Assembly: GCF_000003605.2 (NCBI RefSeq)
Contig: NW_003130870.1
Coordinates: forward strand, 1-23,794
Direction of reading: 5' to 3'
From: Saccoglossus kowalevskii
Lineage: Eukaryota > Hemichordata > Enteropneusta > Harrimaniidae
Length of the DNA: 23,794 nt
A program made the translations under genes and the position numbers. Positions 3,616 through 23,515 of this stretch are shown in pieces; the first letter of the stretch is position 1; each line of letters opens with the position of its first letter. Under the pieces are notes generated by a model that saw only the letters and a program-made list of their open reading frames with translations, made no database searches and was not told the origin of the DNA.

Positions 3616-4794
3616 TTAGTCAATCTCCATTAATTCTATATCTTCCTTTTTTTTCTCTACATCTTTATCTGTTTCTTCTCCACATTCAGCTCCTTCATCC
3701 TTTTTTTTAAAACTTTCATCTATTCCATCTTTGATTTCATTAATTTCCTTATCATTCCCATCCAGTTCTTTTTCTTTCTGCATATTTTTTTTATCAATAT
3801 CTTTCTCATCTTTTTTGTCATTCTCATCTAATTTTTCTTTCTCATCCTTTTTTTTTACCTCAGAGATTTCATTTTTAGAACTTTTATCATCTCCATCAGT
3901 TTTAATAACTATTTTAACCTTGTCATCTTTTCCACTAACTACAGCATTTATGTTGTCTTTTTTTTTCTCTGCAAGTTTTTCATTTTCTTTGGTCACTGGC
4001 TTTAATTCTCTTTTTTTAGTTTTTATTTTAATCTTTAGATGCCGTGTCTCCCCATCATCACTTAAATCTTCACTCTCAATTTCACTTTCTGTTTTATACT
4101 CCTCATCATCATCAACTTTTTTCTCATCAAGTTTCTTAGAATTTTCTTTTTTATCTGAATCACTACTTTTTTCATTTTCATCTTCCTTGATTTTTTCCCA
4201 CCATGGTTTCAACTTCTTTTGTAGGTTCTGGGCTGCCTTTCTTCTTGGTCTTAGCTTTTCAAGAGTTTCTATTTCTCCTATGTCTTTCCTAATACCTGGA
4301 TTGAACTCGTCATCACTTTTATCAAGAACATCACCCTCACTCTCACTGCTATCAAAACTTATCTCTTGTCGTGTCTTCAATCTCTGTTTACGTTTCACCC
4401 CTCTACTTCCTTTAGGTTGTGTTATTATAGTTTTTGACTTCATCTTTACAGTTTCAGGTTTGGGTTCTTTTGTCTCTTCATCTGAATCCAAATCAATAAT
4501 GATCACAGGCCCCTGGGGTTTGGGTAGAATCTTTGCTAGCGGTTTAGGTTTGATTTTCTGATTCACTTGATTAGCTTTCCTGGTTTTAGCAGCTCTGCTT
4601 CTCGCCATTCTCTTGTTGTATTCATCTTCATTCTCACATTGCATGTCAAGTAAACACCCATCGTCGTCGTTATTTGCATTTTCTGGTTTATATTCACGTA
4701 TTATCTCAACTCGAAACTTGCGTATTGGTTGTACAGGGTCGTCGTTACCAGGTTTAATTGTGGTCGATGGAATGGCAGTTACCGTTGTCGCCAT
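3616..4794 (-). CDS. Highly charged, disordered, probably nuclear protein with SUMO-interaction-like motif (392 aa)
   Basis: This is an uninterrupted 392-codon frame with no intron. Residues 97-107 read VIIIDLDSDEE, a hydrophobic run followed by acidic residues, which is the form of a SUMO-interacting motif; VKIVIKTDGDD (about 293-303) is a weaker second candidate. Basic clusters GVKRKQRLKTR (132-142) and RPRRKAAQNLQKKLK (182-196) look like nuclear localisation signals. Ser-acidic stretches such as SFDSSESEGD (146-155) look like CK2 sites. LKPWWEKIK (195-203) is one of few aromatic spots. From about residue 205 the chain is almost all Lys, Glu, Asp and Ser, so it should be disordered. I see no enzyme fold and do not recognise the family. 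A chromatin or nuclear scaffold role is inference. The start fits because the ATG lies inside a YY1-like motif and the N-terminus is Met-Ala. Confidence 0.75.
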   Translation of the reverse strand: MATTVTAIPSTTIKPGNDDPVQPIRKFRVEIIREYKPENANNDDDGCLLDMQCENEDEYNKRMARSRAAKTRKANQVNQKIKPKPLAKILPKPQGPVIIIDLDSDEETKEPKPETVKMKSKTIITQPKGSRGVKRKQRLKTRQEISFDSSESEGDVLDKSDDEFNPGIRKDIGEIETLEKLRPRRKAAQNLQKKLKPWWEKIKEDENEKSSDSDKKENSKKLDEKKVDDDEEYKTESEIESEDLSDDGETRHLKIKIKTKKRELKPVTKENEKLAEKKKDNINAVVSGKDDKVKIVIKTDGDDKSSKNEISEVKKKDEKEKLDENDKKDEKDIDKKNMQKEKELDGNDKEINEIKDGIDESFKKKDEGAECGEETDKDVEKKKEDIELMEID

Positions 4795-6711: not shown

Positions 6712-6924
6712 TATTCACTCTCTTGTATTTGCCGAGATGACCAGTTCAGAAATGTCTATTCACTCTCTTGTATTTGCCGAGATGACCAGTTCAGAAATGT
6801 CTATTCACTCTCTTGTATTTGCCGAGATGACCAGTTCAGAAATGTCTATTCACTCTCTTGTATTTGCCGAGATGACCAGTTCAGAAATGTCTATTCACTC
6901 TCTTGTATTTGCCGAGATGACCAG
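6712..6924 (+). repeat. 45-bp minisatellite, about 4.7 perfect copies
   Basis: Units begin TATTCACTCTCTTGTATTTG and start at 6712, 6757, 6802, 6847 and 6892; the last is cut off. I found no differences between units. Because 45 is divisible by three, the plus frame stays open and repeats a 15-residue unit (IHSLVFAEMTSSEMS), but flanking sequence offers no gene context. Confidence 0.9.
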
Positions 6925-7253
6925 TATGTATAATTGCTGAACACATGACATTACATTTTGTAATCGTGTCAGTTGTTCATACATATATATAATTGTATTT
7001 TATATTAAATACAAATAAATACACCATGCGTGCAACGTACGCAACGAGTTATTATTAGATGAATGTAAATACGCCGTACTTGTATGGTGCGAGTTATTGG
7101 TAAATAAATATCACAAATGCGCGTATGAGTTAAAACATGTAACTGCATAAAAATACGCTATTGTATTAGTAAATATATTTAAAATCATTAATTAAATCTA
7201 AATATATGTATATAATTGCAGGGACTCAATCGATAGGATATAAAAGACCGATC

Positions 7254-9436: not shown

Positions 9437-9445
9437 AACTTACAG

Positions 9446-9903
9446 GTCCTATTATTTTGTGGTCTCAATGAATGAGATGCCATAATTTGTAGACACACGT
9501 CTTATTATTTTGTGGTGTCCATGAATGAGATGCCATAATTTGTAGACACAGAACCTAATATTTTATGGTCTCAATGAATGAGATGCCATAATTGTAGACA
9601 CAGGACCAGTATTTTGTGGTCTCAATGAAAGAAATGCCATAATTTGTAGACCTAGGCCCTATTATTTTGTGGTCTCAATGAATGAGATGCCATAATTTGT
9701 AGACACAGGTCGTCCTATTATTTTGTGGTCTCAATGAATGAGATGCCATAATTTGTAGACACAGGTCCTATTATTTTGTAGTGTCAATGAATGAGATGTC
9801 ATAATTTGTAGACACAGGTCCTATTATTTTGTGGTGTCAATGAATGAGATGCCATAATTTGTAGACACACGCTTATTATTTTGTGGTGTCAATGAATGAG
9901 ATG
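9446..9903 (+). repeat. Satellite array, about 53-bp unit, nine copies
   Basis: The unit reads CTATTATTTTGTGGTCTCAA, then TGAATGAGATGCCATAATTT, then GTAGACACAGGTC. Copies differ by substitutions and small indels (GTGTC for GTCTC, ATGTCATAA once, AGTATTTTG once). The last unit is cut after GAATGAGATG, where the 92-bp array begins without spacer. Confidence 0.9.
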
Positions 9904-10916
9904 TTTGTTGAGACATTTGTTCTCTCAATTTAACAACTTGTAATGGTGGAAATTAATCAAACGTGAGTTGTTTACACCTAAATAAGTCTAAAATGTTTGT
10001 TGAGACATTTGTTCTCTCAATTTAACAACTTGTAATGGTGGAAAATAATTAAATGAGAGTTGTTTACACCAAAATAAGTCTAAAATGTTTGTTGAGACAT
10101 TTGTTCTTTAAATTTAACAACTTGTAATGGTGGAAATTAATCAAACGTGAGTTGTTTACACCTAAATAAGTCTAAAATGTTTGTTGAGACATTTGTTCTC
10201 TCAATTTAACAACTTGTAATGGTGGAAAATAATTAAATGAGAGTTGTTTACACCAAAATAAGTCTAAAATATATGTTGAGACATTTGTTCTTTAAATTTA
10301 ACAACTTGTAATGGTGGAAATTAATCAAACGTGAGTTGTTTACACCAAATAAGTCTAAAATATTTGTTGAAACGTTTGTTCTCTCAATTTAACAACTTGT
10401 AATGGTGGAAAATAATTAAATGAGAGTTGTTTACACCAAAANNNNNNNNNNNNNNNNNNNNNNNNNNNNNNNNNNNNNNNNNNNNNNNNNNNNNNNNNNN
10501 NNNNNNNNNNNNNNNNNNNNNNNNNNNNNNNNNNNNNNNNNNNNNNNNNNNNNNNNNNNNNNNNNNNNNNNNNNNNNNNNNNNNNNNNNNNNNNNNNNNN
10601 NNTAAGTCTAAAATGTTTGTTGAGACATTTGTTCTCTCAATTTAACAACTTGTAATGGGGGGAAAATAATTAAATGAGAGTTGTTTACACCAAAATAAGT
10701 CTAAAATGTTTGTTGAGACATTTGTTCTCTCAATTTAACAACTAGTAATGGGGGGAAAATAATTAAATTAGAGTTGTTTACACCAAAATAAGTCTAAAAT
10801 GTTTGTTGAGACATTTGTTCTTTAAATTTAACAACTTGTAATGGTGGAAATTAATCAAACGCGAGTTGTTTACACCAAAATAAGTCTAAAATATTTCTTG
10901 AGACATTTGTTCTCTC
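9904..10916 (+). repeat. Satellite array, 92-bp unit in alternating types, interrupted by the assembly gap
   Basis: Units begin TTTGTTGAGACATTTGTTCT at 9904, 9996, 10088 and 10180, in variant form at 10272 and 10363, and after the gap at 10616, 10709, 10802 and 10894. Two types alternate before the gap: one with GAAATTAATCAAACGTGAG, the other with GAAAATAATTAAATGAGAG. The working period is therefore a dimer of about 184 bp. After the gap two units of the second type follow each other. The array stops abruptly in TTCTCTC. Confidence 0.9.
10442..10602. other. Assembly gap (161 N)
   Basis: All bases are N. The flanks CACCAAAA and TAAGTCTA would join seamlessly within one 92-bp unit, so the true gap is probably a whole number of units. 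Confidence 0.99.
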
Positions 10917-12420
10917 CTGTGTTTTCTGTGCTTGGGGTGCCCTCTGCTTGCCCTTGGCTGAGCCAACTGGCTAGCGGATTCGATCTGAATGCTCTGGTTC
11001 ATTGCACTCCGAAGCTCTGAGACTGTACCCACCATTCTCCAAACAAAAATGGTGAAAAATGTCCATTCTGCGTCACTGACGTGGGGACGTACCCCCTGAC
11101 TCAGCTTGCTGGCGAAAACACACGCATCGAAGGCCGCGTCTCACGTAGATGTCACACGTAGATGTCACACGTAGATGTGTGGTGGCCCACCAATAAATGT
11201 GTCGCCTGGTTTAGGAGGCTGGTGCATTCTGCCTCCGAGGTCTCAGAGTCCTGTGCGCGCACAATAATGCGCTCAAGCAACTCTGCCCTCATGGCGTGAT
11301 GGATTGTCTCAGATTGAGCTGGCGAGAACGCCCATGAAACGTGGCTGTCCACCTTTACCCAGTCTGCCCAACAGAAATTCGTGGTACTGGGGTCTGGGGA
11401 AGGAGCCTTGGGACCCGGTTGGGGGTATTTTGGTCTTATCCCACACTTTGGGTACTGATCCCGAAACCACACCGACCGGGTAGCGTTTGGTCCAGTGGAA
11501 AGTGTTGCATAAGATTTTACCCCATCCGGGGGCCTTAAGCAATACCTCATCCGCGGCTGACCAACGCCCGCTCATCAACACCGTTTGCGTGCTCTGTGTC
11601 CCACTCCGCACTCGAACGGGCAGGAAGAGACGTGCCGACGGGGTTGCTTTGGATCCCATAAGCGTTGAACCAACTGAAAGTGGTCGCCTTAGGATCAGGG
11701 GTGGGGGTATCACTAAGATCGATGGAACTCTGTATCATCCCAAAAGCGTAGCTCACCGAGTCGTTACGGATGGAAGACTCTGAGGGGCCGCCCGAGGTAC
11801 CGGCTGAATCCGACGAGAGCGAACTGTGTCTCCTTTTCACTTTAAATATGTGAGAGAGAGCGTGTTCGACTGTGCGTCTCATGACAGGGTCGGTTCCCTC
11901 TGGGGATGCCTGTAGGTCAGTAAAAAGGGTAAATTCGTTACCATTGTACCATTACCGCTTGACGAACCCTGGCTGGCTGAAAGTAGGGGGGTCAACGTGT
12001 GCCCTGCCCTGAAAGCTCTGCCCTGAGATCGGAGGCTTGGCTGCCAGCACCCCAGCCAGCATTCAGTGCCCGAGGCTCCAGAGGAGGCCCGGTGCAATTA
12101 GCCTGAGCCTCGGCCTGACCCAAATTAGTGGGAGAGCCGCGGCTAGGAATGGGGGTTCCCCAGAAGAGACATGTTTGAATGCAAACATGCTTTCGTGTTT
12201 CTTCCTGCTTGCCCACCGGGGGCGCAGTGGAGACAGCTCACCTCGACTGCGTCTGATCTATCCAGCCTGCCAGGGACGCAATTTGCTCGACAGTCCTTCG
12301 ACCAAAGCCCTCAACCTCAACTCGGGGGCAAACCCAGCGTCGTGTGAGTAAGGGTTCATAGGAGGAAAAAAACCTCCAGGGGCACAGCCTCGCTGTAGCC
12401 GGTAAAATCAGGTAAACCAC
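10916..12420 (-). pseudogene. Decayed gag-like or transposon ORF, GC-richer than surroundings
   Basis: Reading the minus strand, several open stretches follow in order: 12420-12238 (VEVEGFGRRTVEQIASLAGW), one TGA, then 12237-11992 in the same frame (Gly/Ala/Pro-rich), then in another frame about 11990-11547 (VMRRTVEHALSHIFKVKRR, KATTFSWFNAYGIQSNPVG), then 11550-11155 (ETIHHAMRAELLERIIVRAQ, LLNQATHLLVGHH), then 11140-10916 (DAAFDACVFASKLSQGV, FTIFVWRMVGTVSELRSAMN). All look protein-like but are broken by stops and frame changes, so this is a relic. The helix-rich, Cys-poor character would fit a retroelement structural protein, but I cannot assign a family and see no polymerase or integrase. 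The left edge abuts the 92-bp satellite. Plus-strand frames here are shadows. Confidence 0.45.
11145..11179. repeat. 13-bp tandem repeat (three units) inside the decayed ORF
   Basis: GTAGATGTCACAC occurs twice, followed by a partial third unit. In the minus-strand reading, removing two 13-bp units restores one frame between the HHTST and DAAFDACVF segments. The expansion therefore probably arose after the ORF, and an in-frame TGA (11143-11141) remains. Confidence 0.75.
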
Positions 12421-12958
12421 CGCCTAAAAACACAGACTGTGAGGATGCCCTCCGATCAGCAGGGGGAGGCCGAAAAAATATCGGTACGTCTACTGTCGGG
12501 CCTCCTACTCAACGTCCCGGTACGCGAAGCACCGGTAGCCTTGAGCCAAACATGCAACTCACAATTTGTACTAGACGCGCGACCTTGCTGTGGAAAAACG
12601 AGCGACGCGGTCAGTCTCAGCGATTTTGACGCGCGCCTTCAAGGCAAAGACCCTGAACCTCGCACGCAGCCACGGCGAAAAAGCATATCAGATGCAGGTT
12701 CTATGCTGGTAAATTCTGAATATAACCACTACACAGTCAACTCAAAAACGAGGAGACCAAAAAACTGCAGCGAGTCATGGAGCTGTCATTACATCTATTC
12801 ATTTCTATATACGTAGATCAAGCATGAAGACGACATGCATGAGGGAAGCGAATTACAGTAGTAAAAGGTCACCGGGAGAATCGCTGATTAATGCCTACAG
12901 TTCAGAATAGCCATTTTGACTGACCGGAGTCTATGGTGGGTAATTGAACGTAGTGAAT
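12421..12958. other. Mixed spacer, probably the edge of the decayed element
   Basis: GC-richer sequence continues to about 12.72 kb and then turns AT-rich. A 125-codon plus-strand frame (12439-12816) has no recognisable features or splice context and I do not call it a gene. Confidence 0.3.
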
Positions 12959-13024
12959 TTAGCATATTTGGCGGGAAATAATCACCGAGCGCAGAGAGGT
13001 GATTATTTAACCCAAATATGCTAA
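12959..13024. repeat. Long imperfect hairpin (about 27-bp arms)
   Basis: TTAGCATATTTGG and AAATAATCACC on the left pair with GGTGATTATTT and CCCAAATATGCTAA on the right across a loop of about ten bases; only the middle GCGGG/AA segment mismatches. It could be a miniature foldback element or a transcribed stem-loop. No flanking duplication was clear. Confidence 0.75.
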
Positions 13025-15112: not shown

Positions 15113-17541
15113 CATGTGGTCCAAGAGATGCAGCCTACACTCCCCGATGTAGTCCAAGAGATGCAGCCTACACTCCCCCGATGTAGTCCACGAGATGCAG
15201 CCTACACTCCCCATGTGGTCAACGAGATGCAGCCTACACTCCTCTAATGCAGTTTAAGACATGCAGCCTACACTCCATGAGATGCAGCCTACATTCCTCC
15301 GATGTAGTCCACAAGATGCAGCCTACACTCCTCCGATGTAGTCCATAAGATGCAGCCTACATTCCTTTGATGTAGTCCACAAGATGCAGCCTACATTCCT
15401 CCGATGTAGTCCACAAGATGCAGCCTACATTCCTCCGATGTGGTCCACGAGATGCAGCCTACATTCCTCTGATGTATTCCACAAGATGCAGCCTACACTC
15501 CCCCGATGTGGTCCAAGAGATGCAGCCTACACTTCCCTGATGTGGTCCAGGAGATGCAGCCTACATTCCCCCGATGTGGTCCAGGAGATGCAGCCTACAT
15601 TTCTCCGATGTAGTCCATGAGATGCAGCCTACATTCCTCTGATGTGGTCCACGAGATGCAGCCTACATTCCTCCAATGCAGTCTAAGAGATGCAGCCTAC
15701 ACTCCTCCTAAGTAGTTCAAGAGATGCAGCCTACACTCCTCCTATGTGGTCCATGAGATGCAGCCTACACTCCCCGATGTGGTCCAGGAGATGCAGCCTA
15801 CATTCTCCCGATGTAGTCCACGAGATGCAGCCTACATTCCTCCGATGTAGTTCACGAGATGCAGCTTACACTCCTCTGATGTGGTCCACGAGATGCAGCC
15901 TACATTCCTCCAATGCAGTCTAAGAGATGCAGCCTACACTCCTCCTAAGTAGTCCAAGAGATGCAGCCTACACTCCCCCGATGTGGTCCAGGAGATGCAG
16001 CCTACATTCCTCTTTGTGGTCCACGAGATGCAGCCTACACTCCTCCTATGTGGTCCACAAAATTCAGCCTATACTGCCCCGATGTAGTCCAAGAGTTACA
16101 GCCTACACTCCTTCTATGTGGTCCACGAGATGCAGCCTACACTCCCGATGTAGTCCAAGAGATGCAGCCTACACTCCCCCGATGTAGTCCACGTGATGCA
16201 GCCTACACTCCCCCATGTGGTCAACGAGATTCAGCCTACACTCCACTGATGTGGTCCACGAGATGCAGCCTACACTCCCCCGATGTGGTCCAAGAGATGC
16301 AGCCTACACTCCTGATGTAGTCCAAGAGATGCAGCCTACACTCCCCGATGTAGTCCACGAGATGCAGCCTACACTCCCCCATGTGGTCAACGAGATGCAG
16401 CCTACACTCCACTGATGTGGTCCACGAGATGCAGCCTACACTCCCCCGATGTAGTCCACAAGATGCAGCCTACACTCTCCCGATGTAGTCCACGAGATGC
16501 AGCCTACACTTCCCCGACGTAGTACACGAGATGCAGCCTACACTCCCCTGATGTGGTCCACGAGACGCAGCCTACATTCCTTCGATGTAGTCCACGAGAT
16601 GCAGCCTACATTCCCCTGATGTGGTCCACGAGATGCAGCCTACACTCCCGATGTAGTCCAAGAGATGCAGCCTACACTCCCCCGATGTAGTCCACGAGAT
16701 GCAGCCTACACTCCCCCATGTGGTCCACGAGACGCAGCCTACATTCCTCCGATGTAGTCCACGAGATGCAGCCTACACTCCTCTAATGTGGTTCAAGAGA
16801 TGCAGCCTACACTCCTCCTAAGTAGTCCAAGAGATTCAGCCTACACTCCTCCTATATGGTCCATGATATGCAGCCTACACTCCCCCGATGTGGTCCAGGA
16901 GATGCAGCCTACATTCCGCTTTGTGGTCCACGAGATGCAGCCTACACTCCTCCTATGTGGTCCACAAAACGCAGCCTATACTGCCCCGATGTAGTCCAAG
17001 AGTTACAGCCTACACTCCTTCTATGTGGTCCACGAGATGCAGCCTACACTCCCCGATGTAGTCAAGGAGATGCAGCCTACACTCCCCTGATGTAGTCCAC
17101 GAGATGCAGCCTACACTCCCCCATGTGGTCAATGAGATGCAGCCTACACTCCTCTAATGCAGTTTAAGACATGCAGCTTACATTCCTCCAATGTAGTCCA
17201 GAAGATGCAGCCTACACTCCTCCGATGTAGTCCATAAGATGCAGCCTACATTCCTTCGATGTAGTCCAAGAGATGCAGCCTACATTCCTCCGATGTAGTC
17301 CACAAGATGCAGCCTACATTCCTCCGATGTGGTCCACGAGATGCAGCCTACATTCCTCTGATGTATTCCACAAGATGCAGCCTACACTCCCCCGATGTGG
17401 TCCAAGAGATGCAGCCTACACTTCCCCGATGTGGTCCAGGAGATGCAGCCTACATTCCCCCGATGTGGTCCAGGAGATGCAGCCTACATTTCTCCGATGT
17501 AGTCCACGAGATGCAGCCTACATTCCTCCGATATGGTCCAT
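15113..17541 (+). repeat. 34-bp minisatellite, about 71 units, with internal segmental duplications
   Basis: The unit begins GATGCAGCCTACACTCC and ends GATGTGGTCCACGA, with variants (GTAGTCC, AAGA, AGGA, CATTCC) and occasional short units. Because 34 is not divisible by three, the plus strand reads through all three frames and repeats as a 34-residue unit (MQPTLPRCGPRDAAY and so on), so its many open frames need not be genes. The block at about 15240-15650 recurs at about 17150-17545 (offset 1889-1910), and the one at about 15941-16122 recurs at about 16814-17030 (offset 873, later 907; the difference is one 34-bp unit). There are no TAG or TAA stops in many units, but no start or splice context either. 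Confidence 0.95.
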
Positions 17542-17971
17542 GTGTGTGTTTGGTTGAGTGGAACAAACATACGCAGCTAGTTGTCTGGCATTAAGCCTCG
17601 ACAAACAGTATGCATGACAGGTTGCAGATCTCACAATAATTAATTTTGAATGGTGAACAGCTGCGTATGTAACAGCACGATCCTTATATCCTATCATTTC
17701 CAAACCGTAGATATTGTAATATCTCGCTGGTATATCACGGAATAATATGTCTAAACTGAGATGAAGGTTTGCTGAAGCGTTAGCTTACTAAAAACAACAA
17801 CTACCGTAGTTACATGCAAGTTAACAGTTGTATTTGATGTTTATGACTGGTGTATAAGGTTGGTTCTAGTATTATTTATATTACGTTAAATATTTATGAC
17901 CTATGGCAACGTAATTTTGAGGTCAAAGTAAGTGAGTATCGATGAAACTAAAAATTCCTTCGTTACATTCT
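17542..17971. other. Non-coding spacer
   Basis: No gene or RNA is supported between the minisatellite and the TIR element. It may hold the promoter and first untranslated exon of the vWD gene, but I cannot locate one. Confidence 0.35.
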
Positions 17972-18241
17972 CAGAGGCGGCGGCACGAAATTTTGCAGGA
18001 GGGGCGAGATCTGCTCACCAACCTCGCGCCGAAATCGACACCTTCTAGGTCCGGGGGTATGCTCCCTCTTAACAAGTTTGAAATCTAAACCCTTTAAAAC
18101 GCTATTTCCTGTATTTTACGGGACACATTTTGCTGACAAAAAGGGTTTCAGCTTGATTTTTTAGAGGGGCGGTCGCCCCTCAACATGTTATTCTAGGGGC
18201 GACCGTCTATCTCTTCCCCCTCCCCTGTGCCGCCGCCACTG
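17972..18241. mobile_element. Short TIR element (270 bp) with GC-rich ends
   Basis: The ends CAGAGGCGGCGGCAC and GTGCCGCCGCCACTG are inverted repeats with one mismatch. ATTCT flanks both sides (17967-17971 and 18242-18246), a probable 5-bp target duplication. Inside there is a near-palindrome AGGGGCGGTCGCCCCT and a related GGGGCGACCG. There is no coding capacity. A non-autonomous DNA transposon is the best reading; the superfamily is not clear from five flanking bases. It ends 59 bp before the vWD gene start codon. Confidence 0.75.
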
Positions 18242-18280
18242 ATTCTTGTGTTTTTGTTTCACATAGTTAACTAACTGCAG

Positions 18281-18300
18281 GTGTGCCGTAAAAAAGCAAG
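18281..18300 (+). promoter_or_regulatory. Probable 3' splice site of a 5' UTR intron and start of the first coding exon
   Basis: A T-rich stretch followed by TTAACTAACTGCAG ends at 18280, with a branch-point-like CTAAC, 20 bases before the vWD gene ATG. If used, an untranslated first exon lies upstream and the TIR element (17972-18241) is in the intron. If not used, that element is next to the promoter. Confidence 0.4.
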
Positions 18301-21300
18301 ATGTATCTTGTGATATTTGTCATGGCTTTATTGGTGTACAATGTTGGCACAGACCCACCGGTAAGTTAAAATTAAAAGACAATACCTTTATATAAAACTA
18401 GAAATTATTAAACTAACAATCCATAATATGATTGAGTTACACGTCATTTGAGCCATACACGCTGTGCATAGCAGTACACACGTGTACGTGCCATATCATT
18501 AATATTGTGTGATTTACGCCGTTGAACCAAAAACTGGGTTTACAAACATATGTGTTTGTGATTCACGATGAGATGTTTGAGATGTTTTGCGTTCAAACAC
18601 AAATATCAAATTAAGATAATAAACTTTCATTCTTCGGTATTTTGTATTTTGTTTTTCATGGTTTCATTCTGTAGCTCTATGAAAAATAAACATAAAACTA
18701 ATCAAAATAATGTGGTTAATTAGTAAACAAATTAAAACTACAAATTCCTGAAATGAATAAATAAATACACATAATTAGAATATTCACCGTAACGTGTTTC
18801 CTTGGAAACAATGACTTGGTGTTTTCGCTATAAAGCTAAACATTACTTTAGTAACCAATTTTAATTGCAAATTAATCAACTGAGGTTTATGATTAAAGAA
18901 CTAGTTCACTTACCCCAATACTTACTGTATGTTAGCGTTCACTGTAAAAACAAAAAAATGACACCGAATACGCGAGAGAGATGAATCAAATATAGATAGA
19001 AGATTACAGCACGACAAAATATTTGATTATGTGTATTGTTTTATTCATATAATATAGTACGCCACCATACCGCAAAGTGGCACTGAAATTACTATCGTAC
19101 GATATGGCCAAAATGTGGTATCGTTTATTTACGGGATGTGACTCCATTATTATTTCTGAGGTGAAAGTATAGATGTATAGTTATTTATCACAATGCATAT
19201 TACGCAACATTCTTGTTCTGTGGCTAGATGAAAATATACAATTATATTCATTATTATAACTGTATTTGTTAATTTCAGAGCAGATTAGATGATTTTTATA
19301 AAGGTCACTATCAAAGTAAGACGATTCATATGTTACTTGTCAGTTTCAGTGAGAGTGGAGAAAAATGTATACGATTATATTTGTGCTGATGATTATTCGA
19401 ACTAAAGAAGTGAATACACACACCATACGTGCAAATAATGGCTGTGGTTAATCTGAGTCAGTATATTTAATATTGACACGTGCTTCAAAGATATAAATTG
19501 TAATTACTGTCGATATCACCAGCCGTCTCGTTTTCAAAACTGGTAAATTGTGAAAATACTAACATGTTTAATTGTCATTGTATTACTCGGCAACGGCAGA
19601 ATGTTAATCTGTAAAAGCTGTTTCCCAAATGTTGTTTTCATGAGCTGTACATAGTATGTCTTACTACATATATATTATTTTTATTCACATATAGAAGACG
19701 AGCATCATTATGCAAGGCACGAAAGGGGCTACACATTGGGTAAATCTAATTATAAAACACTAAGTATATATACTTACATATAATGTGTTTATGTAGAGGT
19801 ATTGTAATGAATTTCTAAATATTTACTAGCGAATTTATTATTTCAATCGATCACACCATAATGTTTGTCGCCATATTGTGCATTTGAACAGGTGCATGCA
19901 GATCAGACAAGATAGGTGGTTCAGATACATATAAAAGTGGAATGTGTTTACCTAAGTGTGATGGCATAGACATATTACAAGTGAATTACAGGTATCAACG
20001 GTCTCCAAGTCTTACTTGTGATGTTGTGAAAAATAATTGTGGACTTAAATGCTGCATTGAGAAAGCAGGTGAATGTATATGTACAATATGTTAAATGGTT
20101 CATGTATGTGAAGTTTTATTGTGTTCTAATATACGTGATGTGTGCATTATTAACTAATTATGAATTACTGTTTTATAGATGCAGAAGAACTCGCGAGAGA
20201 AAATTATCCATGTATTGCAGACGAAGGTAAATACTGTTATTGATTGAATACATCATGTCATTGTATGGCCCATAAAGAAAACACGTTCGCCCCCACAAAC
20301 ACTGTCTTGAATTACTAACTCAAAGCAATGTCTTGCTTGGAGTTAATTTGAAAATTTTCCCTCGAGTTCACTGTCGGCTTATTTTAGCATAATCACTTTG
20401 CTTGCTCAGCAATGTCAATTAATATGTATTTATTAATCCACAGATAAGGATTACTGTTATTGCCATCATGGCGGTGAATGTAAAGCCTCTTGTGATGAGC
20501 ATACAGAAAGACATATAGCGATAGACGGTTTATGTTCAATTAATTGTGTATGCTGTAAAAAGAGTAAGTTTAATCAAATAAATAAATACACATTATAAAG
20601 CCAGACGAAAAAATAAATTTAAAACAAATTACTATCTACTAAACCACAGATTACGGTATCTAATATCACGCATGATTCTTTTCTATTTCAGAAATAGAAG
20701 CTGCACGTAAGATAGCTTTTTACATTTATTCATTGTTCAGTTGTTATTCCGACATCTTGGTATTATTATAGTGAAGATTGTCCAACTAACTTTTAAAAAA
20801 AAATACATCCTTTAAAAATCAATGTTAATTAGCTGTGATTGTAGACCAACTATAAATATTTATATTCCAAATTCATTTTCATTATTTCAAATCAGTTCCA
20901 ATACTTTCAAGATCAAATTTTGTAGATTAATATGACTGTGTACGTAATATATTTACCTTATTTTACATGCTTATTATGAATATTTGGAGTTACGTTTGGT
21001 AAGTGATTCCATTTGTTACATTCTGTATGATAAAAGATCGATATTGTCACATACAAATGGACATCATGGACGCAAAAAATAGATTTAATGTGAATTGTTG
21101 GTGTTACATAATTATATGTTTTTTTTTTCTCTTCGAATTTAGAATCACACAGAACCGATGGAAAAACCAAGCTTCACCACTTTCGATCTGTTCAACTATA
21201 CATTCGGCGGCGGAGAATGCACGTACATACTGTTTAAAGAATGTGTGAAGCATCCAACTTTTTTGGTCGCTGTGAGATATATGGGATATTTAGATGACTC

Positions 21301-22807
21301 TGGAGTTTACCACACACAAGTATCAGACGTTCTTTTTAAAATCAAACCATATTTAATTCAGCTGGGATTACATTTGGAAGTATACGTGAGTATTTACGCA
21401 AACATAATATTATTTCTTGCTTTGAATATTTAAAATATGTAATGCTTCAATTGATATTGCTTTGAATAATAACATAAGCAACGTAATGACGTTAATCAAT
21501 AATAAATGAACTTGTTCGATTTGTATTAATAAGCCCATAGAATTTCCAGAATTGTGCCGAGCCTTTGTTACAAAATCATTAATTGTCGTTGCAGGTGAAT
21601 GGTAAACGAGTAACTGAATCGTTGCCATGGTCAGACGACGAACGAATAGTCATCAAGAAAAGAGATGATAAGCATGTCAAAGTGATATTAGTTAACAAAT
21701 TTAAACTAGTTTGGAACGGAAATGGTAACTTGGTTACTGGCACGGACAATTCCCTGCATGGTTATATTTGTGGGTTGCTTGGTAACGCTGATGGAAATCC
21801 GTATAACGACCTGATCATGGAAATTCCTGGAGGTGGATGGAAAATAACCAAGGATATAAATGAGTTTGCAAACAGCTGGATGATACCAGGAAGGTAGATT
21901 TTACAAACTAGTAATATCAAATATATATATGCGCTTCCAGATAACAGAGCTCAACAATTGCACGATAATGCAATTTAAATTACTGTTTTTATATCACTTT
22001 TCAATCACCAGATATTATCTCACATCAGTTAGCTTAAGTTATGACTGAAATCATTTTCTTTATTGTTTACAAGAGTGATTATGATGTCATATTTTACACA
22101 TGATTCCTCGCTGAAAAATCAAAATGGCGGACAACGTATACTAATTAAAAATGTGAATATTTATGGGTAATGAAAAGTGATATAGAATGATGTCAATTGC
22201 ATTCCTCTAAATTTGTTGACTCGTTTCATCGATTCCGATATTAGTGTCTATTGACGAAACGAAAGTTAAAAATGCATAAATGAATATCAAATTGGTGACC
22301 CATAACTATAAATAATTTATAATTTTATTCTAGTATAATTCATAACAATATTTCCCGTCACCAATTTCGTTCACGTCACATAATTTGCAAATTCACTGGT
22401 TGCATGAAATATTACAATAGCGACCTGTTTTATGGATACGTTTTGACAGGAAATTCTCATTGCCGTTTTTTAGTTTTTGATCTATATTAATACTGAGATA
22501 ATTTCTTTTTTTCTATGTTTTTACTTTCTTTTTAATACATTTGCATTTAATTGCTTCCATCATTTCAGTACATATATATTTGTTTCAATTTTTTTCAGAA
22601 TTCTTTTTGTTTGACGTAATTTTATCAGTTTCACAGAACATTTAACCAGTGTCAAATATTTTGTGGAAATTTTACTATGCTAGTGTAAGTTAGTTACAAT
22701 CATATTGAATAGTGCTGTATGTATATATTCGTTACAGCTGCAAGAATGTCGCCACCAAGGAAGAAGCCGATTTTGTTCATAATCATGAAAACTGGATTCC
22801 ACATTGA
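18301..22807 (+). CDS. Secreted protein with two cysteine-rich defensin-like modules and a vWD domain (367 aa, ten coding exons)
   Basis: Exons: 18301-18360, 19279-19315, 19695-19739, 19892-20068, 20179-20226, 20444-20563, 20692-20706, 21153-21385, 21595-21893 and 22738-22807. They total 1104 bases, join without stops and end at TGA 22805-22807. Residues 1-16 form a signal peptide (MYLVIFVMALLVYNVG). Residues 21-47 are a His/Tyr-rich linker. Module 1 (48-106) has Cys at 50, 66, 70, 90, 97, 101 and 102. After a short linker, module 2 (123-162) has Cys at 127, 129, 135, 139, 153, 157, 159 and 160, giving C-x5-C-x3-C-x13-C-x3-C-x-CC with GGEC and DGLC glycines. Residues 173-346 are a vWD domain (SFTTFDLFNYTF, GECTYIL, CGLLGNADGNPYND, FANSWMIPG). 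The GDPH motif is absent and the signature's second Cys (CGLCGN) is Leu. An extracellular, mucus, matrix or defence role is inference. Termination at AGG-TAG (21892-21897) is an alternative if the last intron is retained. Confidence 0.8.
20692..20706 (+). other. 15-base microexon of the vWD gene
   Basis: A pyrimidine-rich tract ending TTCTATTTCAG precedes, and GTAAGA follows. It encodes KIEAA in phase 1-1, so including or skipping it keeps the frame between module 2 and the vWD domain. It could be a cassette exon in a hinge. Confidence 0.6.
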
Positions 22808-22890
22808 CAGATTGTACACAACTACATATTTTATTTAAAAATTATTGTTTATTCGTATTCCTGACGTCTAGAAAAATAGAAAGTATTTAA
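22808..22890 (+). other. Proximal 3' UTR of the vWD gene
   Basis: AT-rich sequence follows the TGA. I see no canonical AATAAA before the MITE at 22891, so the transcript may use a variant signal or run into the MITE. Confidence 0.4.
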
Positions 22891-23056
22891 AGCGGGAGGG
22901 TCGTCACCTGCGCACGCGCGGGAATTGAGTCCCAAACGACGATAACAACACACGCTAAAACGCAAAGGCTCGTGTGTGGACGCTTGTTTGTAAACAACGA
23001 CACGCTATGGCCATCTGGCGCATGCGCAAATGACGATTCCACCTCCACCCCCCGCT
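22891..23056 (-). mobile_element. TTAA-flanked MITE (copy 2, 166 bp, reverse orientation to copy 1)
   Basis: It is flanked by TTAA at 22887-22890 and 23057-23060, with ends AGCGGGAGGG and CCCCCCGCT. The inner GGAATTGAGTCCC, ACGACGATAACAACACACGC and AAACGCAAAGGCTC are reverse complements of segments in copy 1 at 1019-1151. It holds CTGCGCACGCGCG and GGCGCATGCGCAAA, close to the NRF1 palindrome. It is longer than copy 1 by 33 bp, mainly in the arm near its right end. Confidence 0.8.
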
Positions 23057-23060
23057 TTAA

Positions 23061-23515
23061 ATAACATTTTCTTTAACTAACGGGAAGCTGTGTTTTAACA
23101 TTAGCATAATATATCTCAGTTCTTTTCTACATAAAATAATTTCTTGTCAAAATTAGTCTCAAGAATTCGAAAAAGTGTATCGTTTTCAAAATTAAAGGAT
23201 TGTGGTGGTGTCTGTTGTAGGCCAAAAGTTTATATAATTTTATATTACAATGTGAAATATTAAATAACAGTGTGTGGTAGCAAAAGTGAATTAACTGGGG
23301 AGAATATACATATAAATGTACAAATAAATATAATAGTTTATAATAAGTTCGTATATGTGTACATATTTTAACACACAAACGTACACGTACACGTGCACAC
23401 AGTCAGTTTAACCATAAAACATCCATATAACCTCAGTGAAATCTCTCAGTGCTATTACTGATTTCATTAATCTCTCGAATTTGTTAATGATAACAAATCT
23501 TTAATAATAGTTTGA
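23061..23515. other. AT-rich spacer
   Basis: No coding frame is supported. A CACGTACACGTGCACAC string lies near 23384-23400. Confidence 0.4.

Follow-up and report, generated by a model that had tools for sequence, protein, structure and literature searches.

A complete contig of the 572-Mb Saccoglossus kowalevskii genome assembly (NW_003130870.1, positions 1 to 23,794; hereafter the window) carries a gene at 18301-22807 on the forward strand that is predicted to encode a secreted protein with an unusual combination of domains. Two small defensin-like cysteine modules, the second of them related by profile to beta-defensins and big defensins, precede a single vWD domain. We consider both this architecture and the defensin kinship very likely.

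Spliced together, the ten exons form one uninterrupted frame of 368 codons, the last of which is the stop. The predicted protein has 367 amino acids: a putative signal peptide comes first, the two cysteine modules follow, and the single vWD domain comes last. All features lie on the forward strand:

18301..22807, forward: whole coding region, ten exons, 367 amino acids (in-frame join, GT..AG introns, family support)
18301..18360, forward: exon 1, putative signal peptide with the hydrophobic start MYLVIFVMALLVYNVG; no convincing paralogue counterpart
19279..19315, forward: exon 2; counterparts with splice sites in loci L009, L011 and L012
19695..19739, forward: exon 3, uncertain; splice sites only
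19892..20068, forward: exon 4, cysteine module 1 (C50-C102); relatives in L009, L011, L012 and two more loci
20179..20226, forward: exon 5, linker that carries C118; like exon 2, found with its splice sites in L009, L011 and L012
20444..20563, forward: exon 6, cysteine module 2 (C127-C160), beta-/big-defensin-like by profile matches (7 of 7 in the beta-defensin group) and shuffled controls
20692..20706, forward: exon 7, 15-nucleotide microexon, uncertain; splice sites only
21153..21385, forward: exon 8, first half of the vWD domain; PF00094 and paralogues
21595..21893, forward: exon 9, second half of the vWD domain with CGLLGNADGNPYND; PF00094 and at least 90 genome matches
22738..22807, forward: exon 10, with the last vWD cysteine (C346), a short tail and the stop; also found with its splice sites in L011 and L012

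All introns read GT..AG, and six consecutive ones (2/3 to 7/8) are in phase 1. The first-pass annotation of the window had proposed a 367-codon frame over ten phase-consistent exons, encoding a secreted protein in which two defensin-like modules of the same plan are joined to a single vWD domain. The in-frame join, the introns and the recurrence of the exons in the gene family confirm the frame, and the predicted protein organization was likewise borne out. An alternative acceptor for exon 8 at 21143 was rejected; it breaks the frame, and the exon must therefore start at 21153. Phase-1 entry into exon 8 was found in six of the seven paralogues with a readable acceptor, the exception being L009 with phase 0 (L019, with an unreadable acceptor, was left out of this count). 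The weak points of the predicted gene model are exons 1, 3 and 7. Exon 1 is the sole signal-peptide-like candidate within positions 17001-19279 of the window, and the same scan found no candidate in L009 or L012 and two weak ones in L011. Exons 3 (45 nucleotides) and 7 had no counterparts in L009, L011 and L012, and the frame is kept if either of them is skipped.

Module 2 has the spacing C129-x5-C135-x3-C139-x13-C153-x3-C157-x-C159-C160, with a glycine two residues ahead of C135 and of C153. This layout agrees with the one described in the first-pass annotation, which had omitted two additional cysteines, C127 in module 2 and C118 in the linker. The module fits the six-cysteine beta-defensin order C..C..C..C..CC (C127 or C129, C135, C139, C153, C159 and C160), leaving two extra cysteines. 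Module 1 reads C50-x15-C66-x3-C70-x19-C90-x6-C97-x3-C101-C102.

To place module 2, a profile was built from 16 sequences (one from the window and 15 from 14 other loci), among which C13, C17, C37 and C38 in module numbering are invariant. Compared with PDB sequences at an expectation value (E) of 10 or less, the profile yielded seven distinct matches, all of them beta-defensins, big defensins or helianthamide (E 0.051 to 1.7): big defensin 1 (twice), beta-defensins 7, 8 and 106, CpoBD13, which was counted as a beta-defensin on its name, and helianthamide. Two control profiles, in which the non-cysteine columns of the module-2 alignment were shuffled, gave no beta-defensin in three matches and one match, respectively. 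Therefore, the kinship of module 2 does not come from cysteine spacing alone. In Pfam, Defensin_beta_2 was matched by three of ten modules under the cut-off (E 0.09 to 0.98), the window's module not being among them; a search with the 16 module-2 members at E<=1 gave Defensin_beta_2 for two, Defensin_beta for one and TSP_3 for one. Module 1 aligned with module 2 by hhalign at 71% (E 3.6e-5 for one comparison), against 1.7% for one shuffled control, in line with the earlier view that it follows the same plan with longer loops. We conclude that, by sequence profile, module 2 belongs with the beta- and big defensins and that module 1 is probably a related module, an assignment with weaker support than that of module 2. 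The three-dimensional fold of the modules we infer.

The comparison with defensins had originally named two groups. The part concerning beta- and big defensins stands on the PDB profile matches, while the CS-alpha-beta defensins were dropped, with no such family for the window's modules in the Pfam or PDB searches. TIL and EGF, named beforehand as examples of unrelated families that would speak against defensin-like modules, were equally absent from both searches; in Pfam, neither was found at E<=1 with the whole protein or at E<=10 with the two modules. A scheme of disulfides between the modules was also dropped; the window has 16 cysteines ahead of the vWD domain and L011, by our own count, 17.

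Several results weigh against the defensin assignment. The PDB matches of the module-2 profile are individually weak, the best having an E of 0.051, and a PDB search with module 1 alone gave no defensin among its matches. The window's two modules had no Pfam match at E<=10, and two paralogue modules weakly matched other Pfam families under the cut-off, TSP_3 (E 0.006) and Toxin_11 (E 0.012). The big defensin family PF14862 had no match at E<=1, either in the genome or in the window protein. Additionally, AlphaFold returned no usable model for the isolated 39-residue exon 6, with a mean predicted local distance difference test score of 49.8.

The vWD domain was identified as PF00094 over residues 172-320 (E 2.3e-17; 64.2 bits against a cut-off of 22.9), with 147 of the 156 profile positions matched. 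Its earlier description as degenerate was thus overstated. Conserved in it are G-x-C-x-Y-x-L, the loop CGL..GN.D...ND, a second cysteine and the final one (the cysteines being C190, C198, C304 and C346), and presumably the calcium loop. The CGLC motif reads CGLL, so that its second cysteine, present in the aligned IgGFc-binding protein, is missing. In VWF structures this cysteine pairs with another immediately ahead of the TFD motif; that partner, too, is absent from the window's vWD domain. With both partners gone, one whole disulfide seems to have been lost, rather than the fold having decayed. Exon 10 adds 22 whole codons, followed by the stop. No C8 or TIL was found beside the domain (Pfam, E<=1), and it stands single; the combination of CGLC motif, C8 and TIL that defines a VWF-type D assembly is thus lacking, and VWF-type multimers are unlikely. 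The nearest solved relative in the PDB search was the IgGFc-binding protein (E 0.00025). The whole protein matched nothing else in Pfam at E<=1 and nothing in NCBIfam, and the window had no match in Rfam. Other weak PDB matches of the whole protein were set aside, namely a dehydrogenase (E 1.5), lipovitellin (E 2.1) and rhodniin (residues 92-160, E 3.9).

As judged from the sequences, the gene belongs to a diversified family that shares the order of modules followed by vWD. With exon 9 as the query, at least 90 matches were obtained in the genome at E<=0.001. They are spread over 58 contigs, and 17 of these contigs carry between two and five matches each (the counts are lower bounds). Of the 19 nearest paralogues, 16 (those in rows 2-16 and 20 of the match table) were retrieved and scanned for the module pattern C..[G/C]xC..C..C..CC. 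In 15 of the 16, the pattern matched once or more on the strand of the vWD domain and upstream of it; L030, which had none, contains a run of N. In total, the pattern occurred 27 times in sense, one of which (the first of L014) looks accidental, and was found neither in antisense nor in 20 shuffles of three-base blocks. The pattern was also absent from four distant vWD loci (E 7e-8 to 9e-7) within the 6 kb fetched, and the idea that modules accompany all vWD matches was rejected.

Module 2 of the window, used as a genome query, gave four non-self matches (E 0.006 to 2.5) and a module of L014 gave three (E 2e-10 to 0.23), and all seven sit in vWD-containing loci. A query with module 1 returned itself plus two chance-level matches (E 1.45 and 1.81). 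Together with the presence of modules in near loci and their absence from the four distant ones, this indicates that the fusion marks a subfamily and not every vWD gene. With 150 of the 425 candidates scored, at least 158 matches to PF00094 were found in the genome, a tally of exons or fragments and not of genes. In a vWD tree of 22 rows, 11 of the 19 inner branches stayed open, and the tree is compatible with one origin of the fusion as well as with several. One distant vWD copy adjoins an apparent LamG exon, as read by eye.

The modules of the paralogues are of several kinds. C-R-P-x-C is present in modules of L014, L017, L018 and L020, a further module type is carried by L015 and L018, and L020 and L029 contain a module with the loops C-x11..12-C-x6-C-x8-C-x7-CC. 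By eye, positions 1300-3420 of L029 read as about five successive cysteine-rich stretches before the vWD domain, a longer form of the same architecture. A profile of nine further modules had three PDB matches (E 0.55 to 2), to micronemal protein 4, proepiregulin (E 1.8) and a carboxypeptidase inhibitor (E 2), and a single module of the further type alone had none. Compared with module 2, the profile of the nine reached 1.2%, not clearly related, and no profile support was obtained for a fold shared between these other types and module 2.

Rates of change were estimated from the neighbouring pair L011/L012 as nonsynonymous (dN) and synonymous (dS) divergence. Module 1 gave dN 0.22 and dS 0.52, module 2 dN 0.131 and dS 0.16, and the two vWD halves dN 0.029 and dS 0.088, and dN 0.041 and dS 0.12. 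By dN, the modules of this one pair have thus changed about three to eight times faster than the vWD domain, with no dN/dS ratio above 1. It counts against giving this contrast much weight that it comes from a single gene pair and that dS differs between exons. The uneven dS suggests gene conversion of the vWD exons, which, by homogenising them, may explain part of the contrast. Further, the net charge of the 16 module-2 sequences is -2 in six, -1 in one, 0 in one and +1 to +3 in eight; in the window, module 2 has a net charge of -2 and module 1 of +3. A uniform cationic killer is unlikely with charges from -2 to +3. Of the antimicrobial, mucus-anchored and matrix roles that the first-pass annotation had tentatively offered, it is thus a plain cationic antimicrobial that the charges speak against.

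We propose that the gene encodes a secreted multidomain binding protein. The two tandem modules would act as variable binding heads, and the single vWD domain would carry or anchor them on mucus, matrix, clot or a microbial surface, within innate immune or mucosal recognition. Its secretion, its binding to microbes and the anchoring by the vWD domain are all conjectural parts of the proposal. As the modules are faster-changing in the one pair and not consistently cationic, binding or recognition is favoured over plain membrane killing, and we regard a recognition role as plausible, if slightly short of probable. In zebrafish, the vWD domain of vitellogenin reportedly has a part in pattern recognition (excerpt of PMC4632452, which cites another paper). 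Faster modules, a steadier carrier and a partly tandem secreted family would best fit a recognition repertoire. More tentatively still, the family could represent a lineage-specific, partly tandem repertoire in which phase-1 exons of several beta-defensin-like kinds, one to about five per gene, diversify faster than the conserved vWD carrier on which they are mounted; defensins would then be the building material of a variable family for innate recognition.

The modules might instead block hydrolases, with the vWD domain as the carrier, as tandem beta-defensin-like modules do in the tick carboxypeptidase inhibitor. That inhibitor consists of two beta-defensin-like repeats (excerpt of PMC6339383), helianthamide is among the PDB matches of module 2, related beta-defensin-like anemone peptides inhibit amylase (abstract of PMC6835510), and a carboxypeptidase inhibitor is one of the three weak matches of the other module types. 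The near-neutral average charge of the modules is also compatible with inhibition. However, no inhibitory loop or tail was identified and the module-2 profile did not match the tick inhibitor in PDB, and we consider an enzyme inhibitor doubtful. The bactericidal alternative, in which the modules kill as defensins do after release from the vWD domain or while displayed on it, draws on the kinship to big defensins, of which oyster Cg-BigDef1 entraps and kills bacteria (excerpt of PMC6805989), and on the half of the module-2 sequences with positive charge. The negative or neutral other half, which includes the window's own module, argues against it. The sole dibasic site outside the vWD domain lies at residues 161-163, at the end of module 2, and release of a single module is not obvious; we therefore regard direct killing as improbable.

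Domains of the vWD type are common in mucus and matrix proteins, and a structural matrix, mucus or adhesive protein, with the cysteine modules as stable spacers, would be in keeping with the IgGFc-binding protein as nearest solved relative, with the abundance of vWD matches in the genome and with the distant copy beside a LamG-like exon. VWF-type multimers are unlikely for the reasons given above, however, and faster change of the modules in the one pair is unexpected for spacers, and we consider such a structural role unlikely.

No description of a fusion between vWD and defensin modules was found in the open-licence literature, in which long result lists were viewed in part, and the earlier statement that no such architecture is described holds to that extent. 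Unannotated relatives may well exist in the gene catalogues of other animals. Beta-defensins are best known as short, free-standing peptides, to which big defensins add a single small domain at the N-terminus. If our interpretation is true, the beta-defensin fold would be an exchangeable, exon-borne module that was shuffled into larger secreted vWD proteins, and it becomes testable whether such folds serve recognition or inhibition instead of killing.

The remainder of the window holds several repeats. A minisatellite at 15114-17540 has a 34-bp unit, with about 67 copies from 15274 on and about five earlier, and yields several spurious open reading frames. At 9442-10916, three tandem arrays adjoin one another, their repeat units being about 53, 92 and 93 bp long, and 4.8 perfect copies of a 45-bp unit (6712-6925) lie within a 97-codon open frame. 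A 392-codon open frame at 3616-4794 on the reverse strand is rich in Lys, Glu and Asp and has no Pfam match at E<=1. The region 11001-13000 forms an island of 53-54% G+C in a window of mostly 30-40%; it has no Rfam match, and two of its frames have no Pfam match. Just 3' of the gene, a near-perfect 16-bp inverted repeat with 148 bases between its arms (22884-23063) resembles a small terminal-inverted-repeat element. Elsewhere in the genome, the mitochondrial contig of L031 (G000:C4830) carries a COX1 frame on one strand and, on the other, frames that we read as ND1 and COX2; COX1 has nine TGA codons in frame and no AGR codon.

Among known systems, assemblies of the IgGFc-binding protein and VWF type share the CGL..GN.D...ND loop and the SW..PG end with the vWD domain of the window, which differs by the missing second cysteine of CGLC, the lack of C8 and TIL and its single copy. 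Helianthamide (PDB 4X0N) matches weakly across the whole of module 2 (E 0.59 with the whole protein, 0.27 with the profile) and, unlike the window protein, is a single 44-residue chain without further domains. The tick carboxypeptidase inhibitor (PDB 1ZLH), which to our knowledge has no vWD domain, has two tandem beta-defensin-like modules as here. According to the excerpt of PMC6339383, no other structure with two beta-defensin repeats has been described.

Big defensins (oyster Cg-BigDef1, PDB 6QBK/6QBL; PF14862) share the cysteine order and G-x-C with module 2, and the oyster protein also shares C-R-P-x-C with the four paralogues named above. Their hydrophobic N-terminal domain was not found here (PF14862, genome); the present proteins differ further in having extra cysteines, two or more modules and the vWD domain. 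A parallel in overall design comes from rusticalin and rusticalin-like proteins, as far as the excerpt of PMC6339383 describes them. In these, a C-terminal peptidase takes the place of the vWD domain, and no peptidase family, as the MD-clan peptidase of a rusticalin-like protein would require, was found in the window protein (Pfam, E<=1). The rusticalin motif is Cx6Cx6-7Cx8Cx7CC, with a C2-C3 loop of 6-7 residues against x3 in the window's modules. Its loops C-x6-C-x8-C-x7-CC recur in the module of L020 and L029, where the first loop is 11-12 residues instead of 6. Like the protein predicted here, rusticalins are secreted and combine two beta-defensin-like repeats with a larger C-terminal domain. 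According to the same excerpt, both the tandem arrangement of beta-defensin-like modules and the joining of such modules to another domain are already known in kind.

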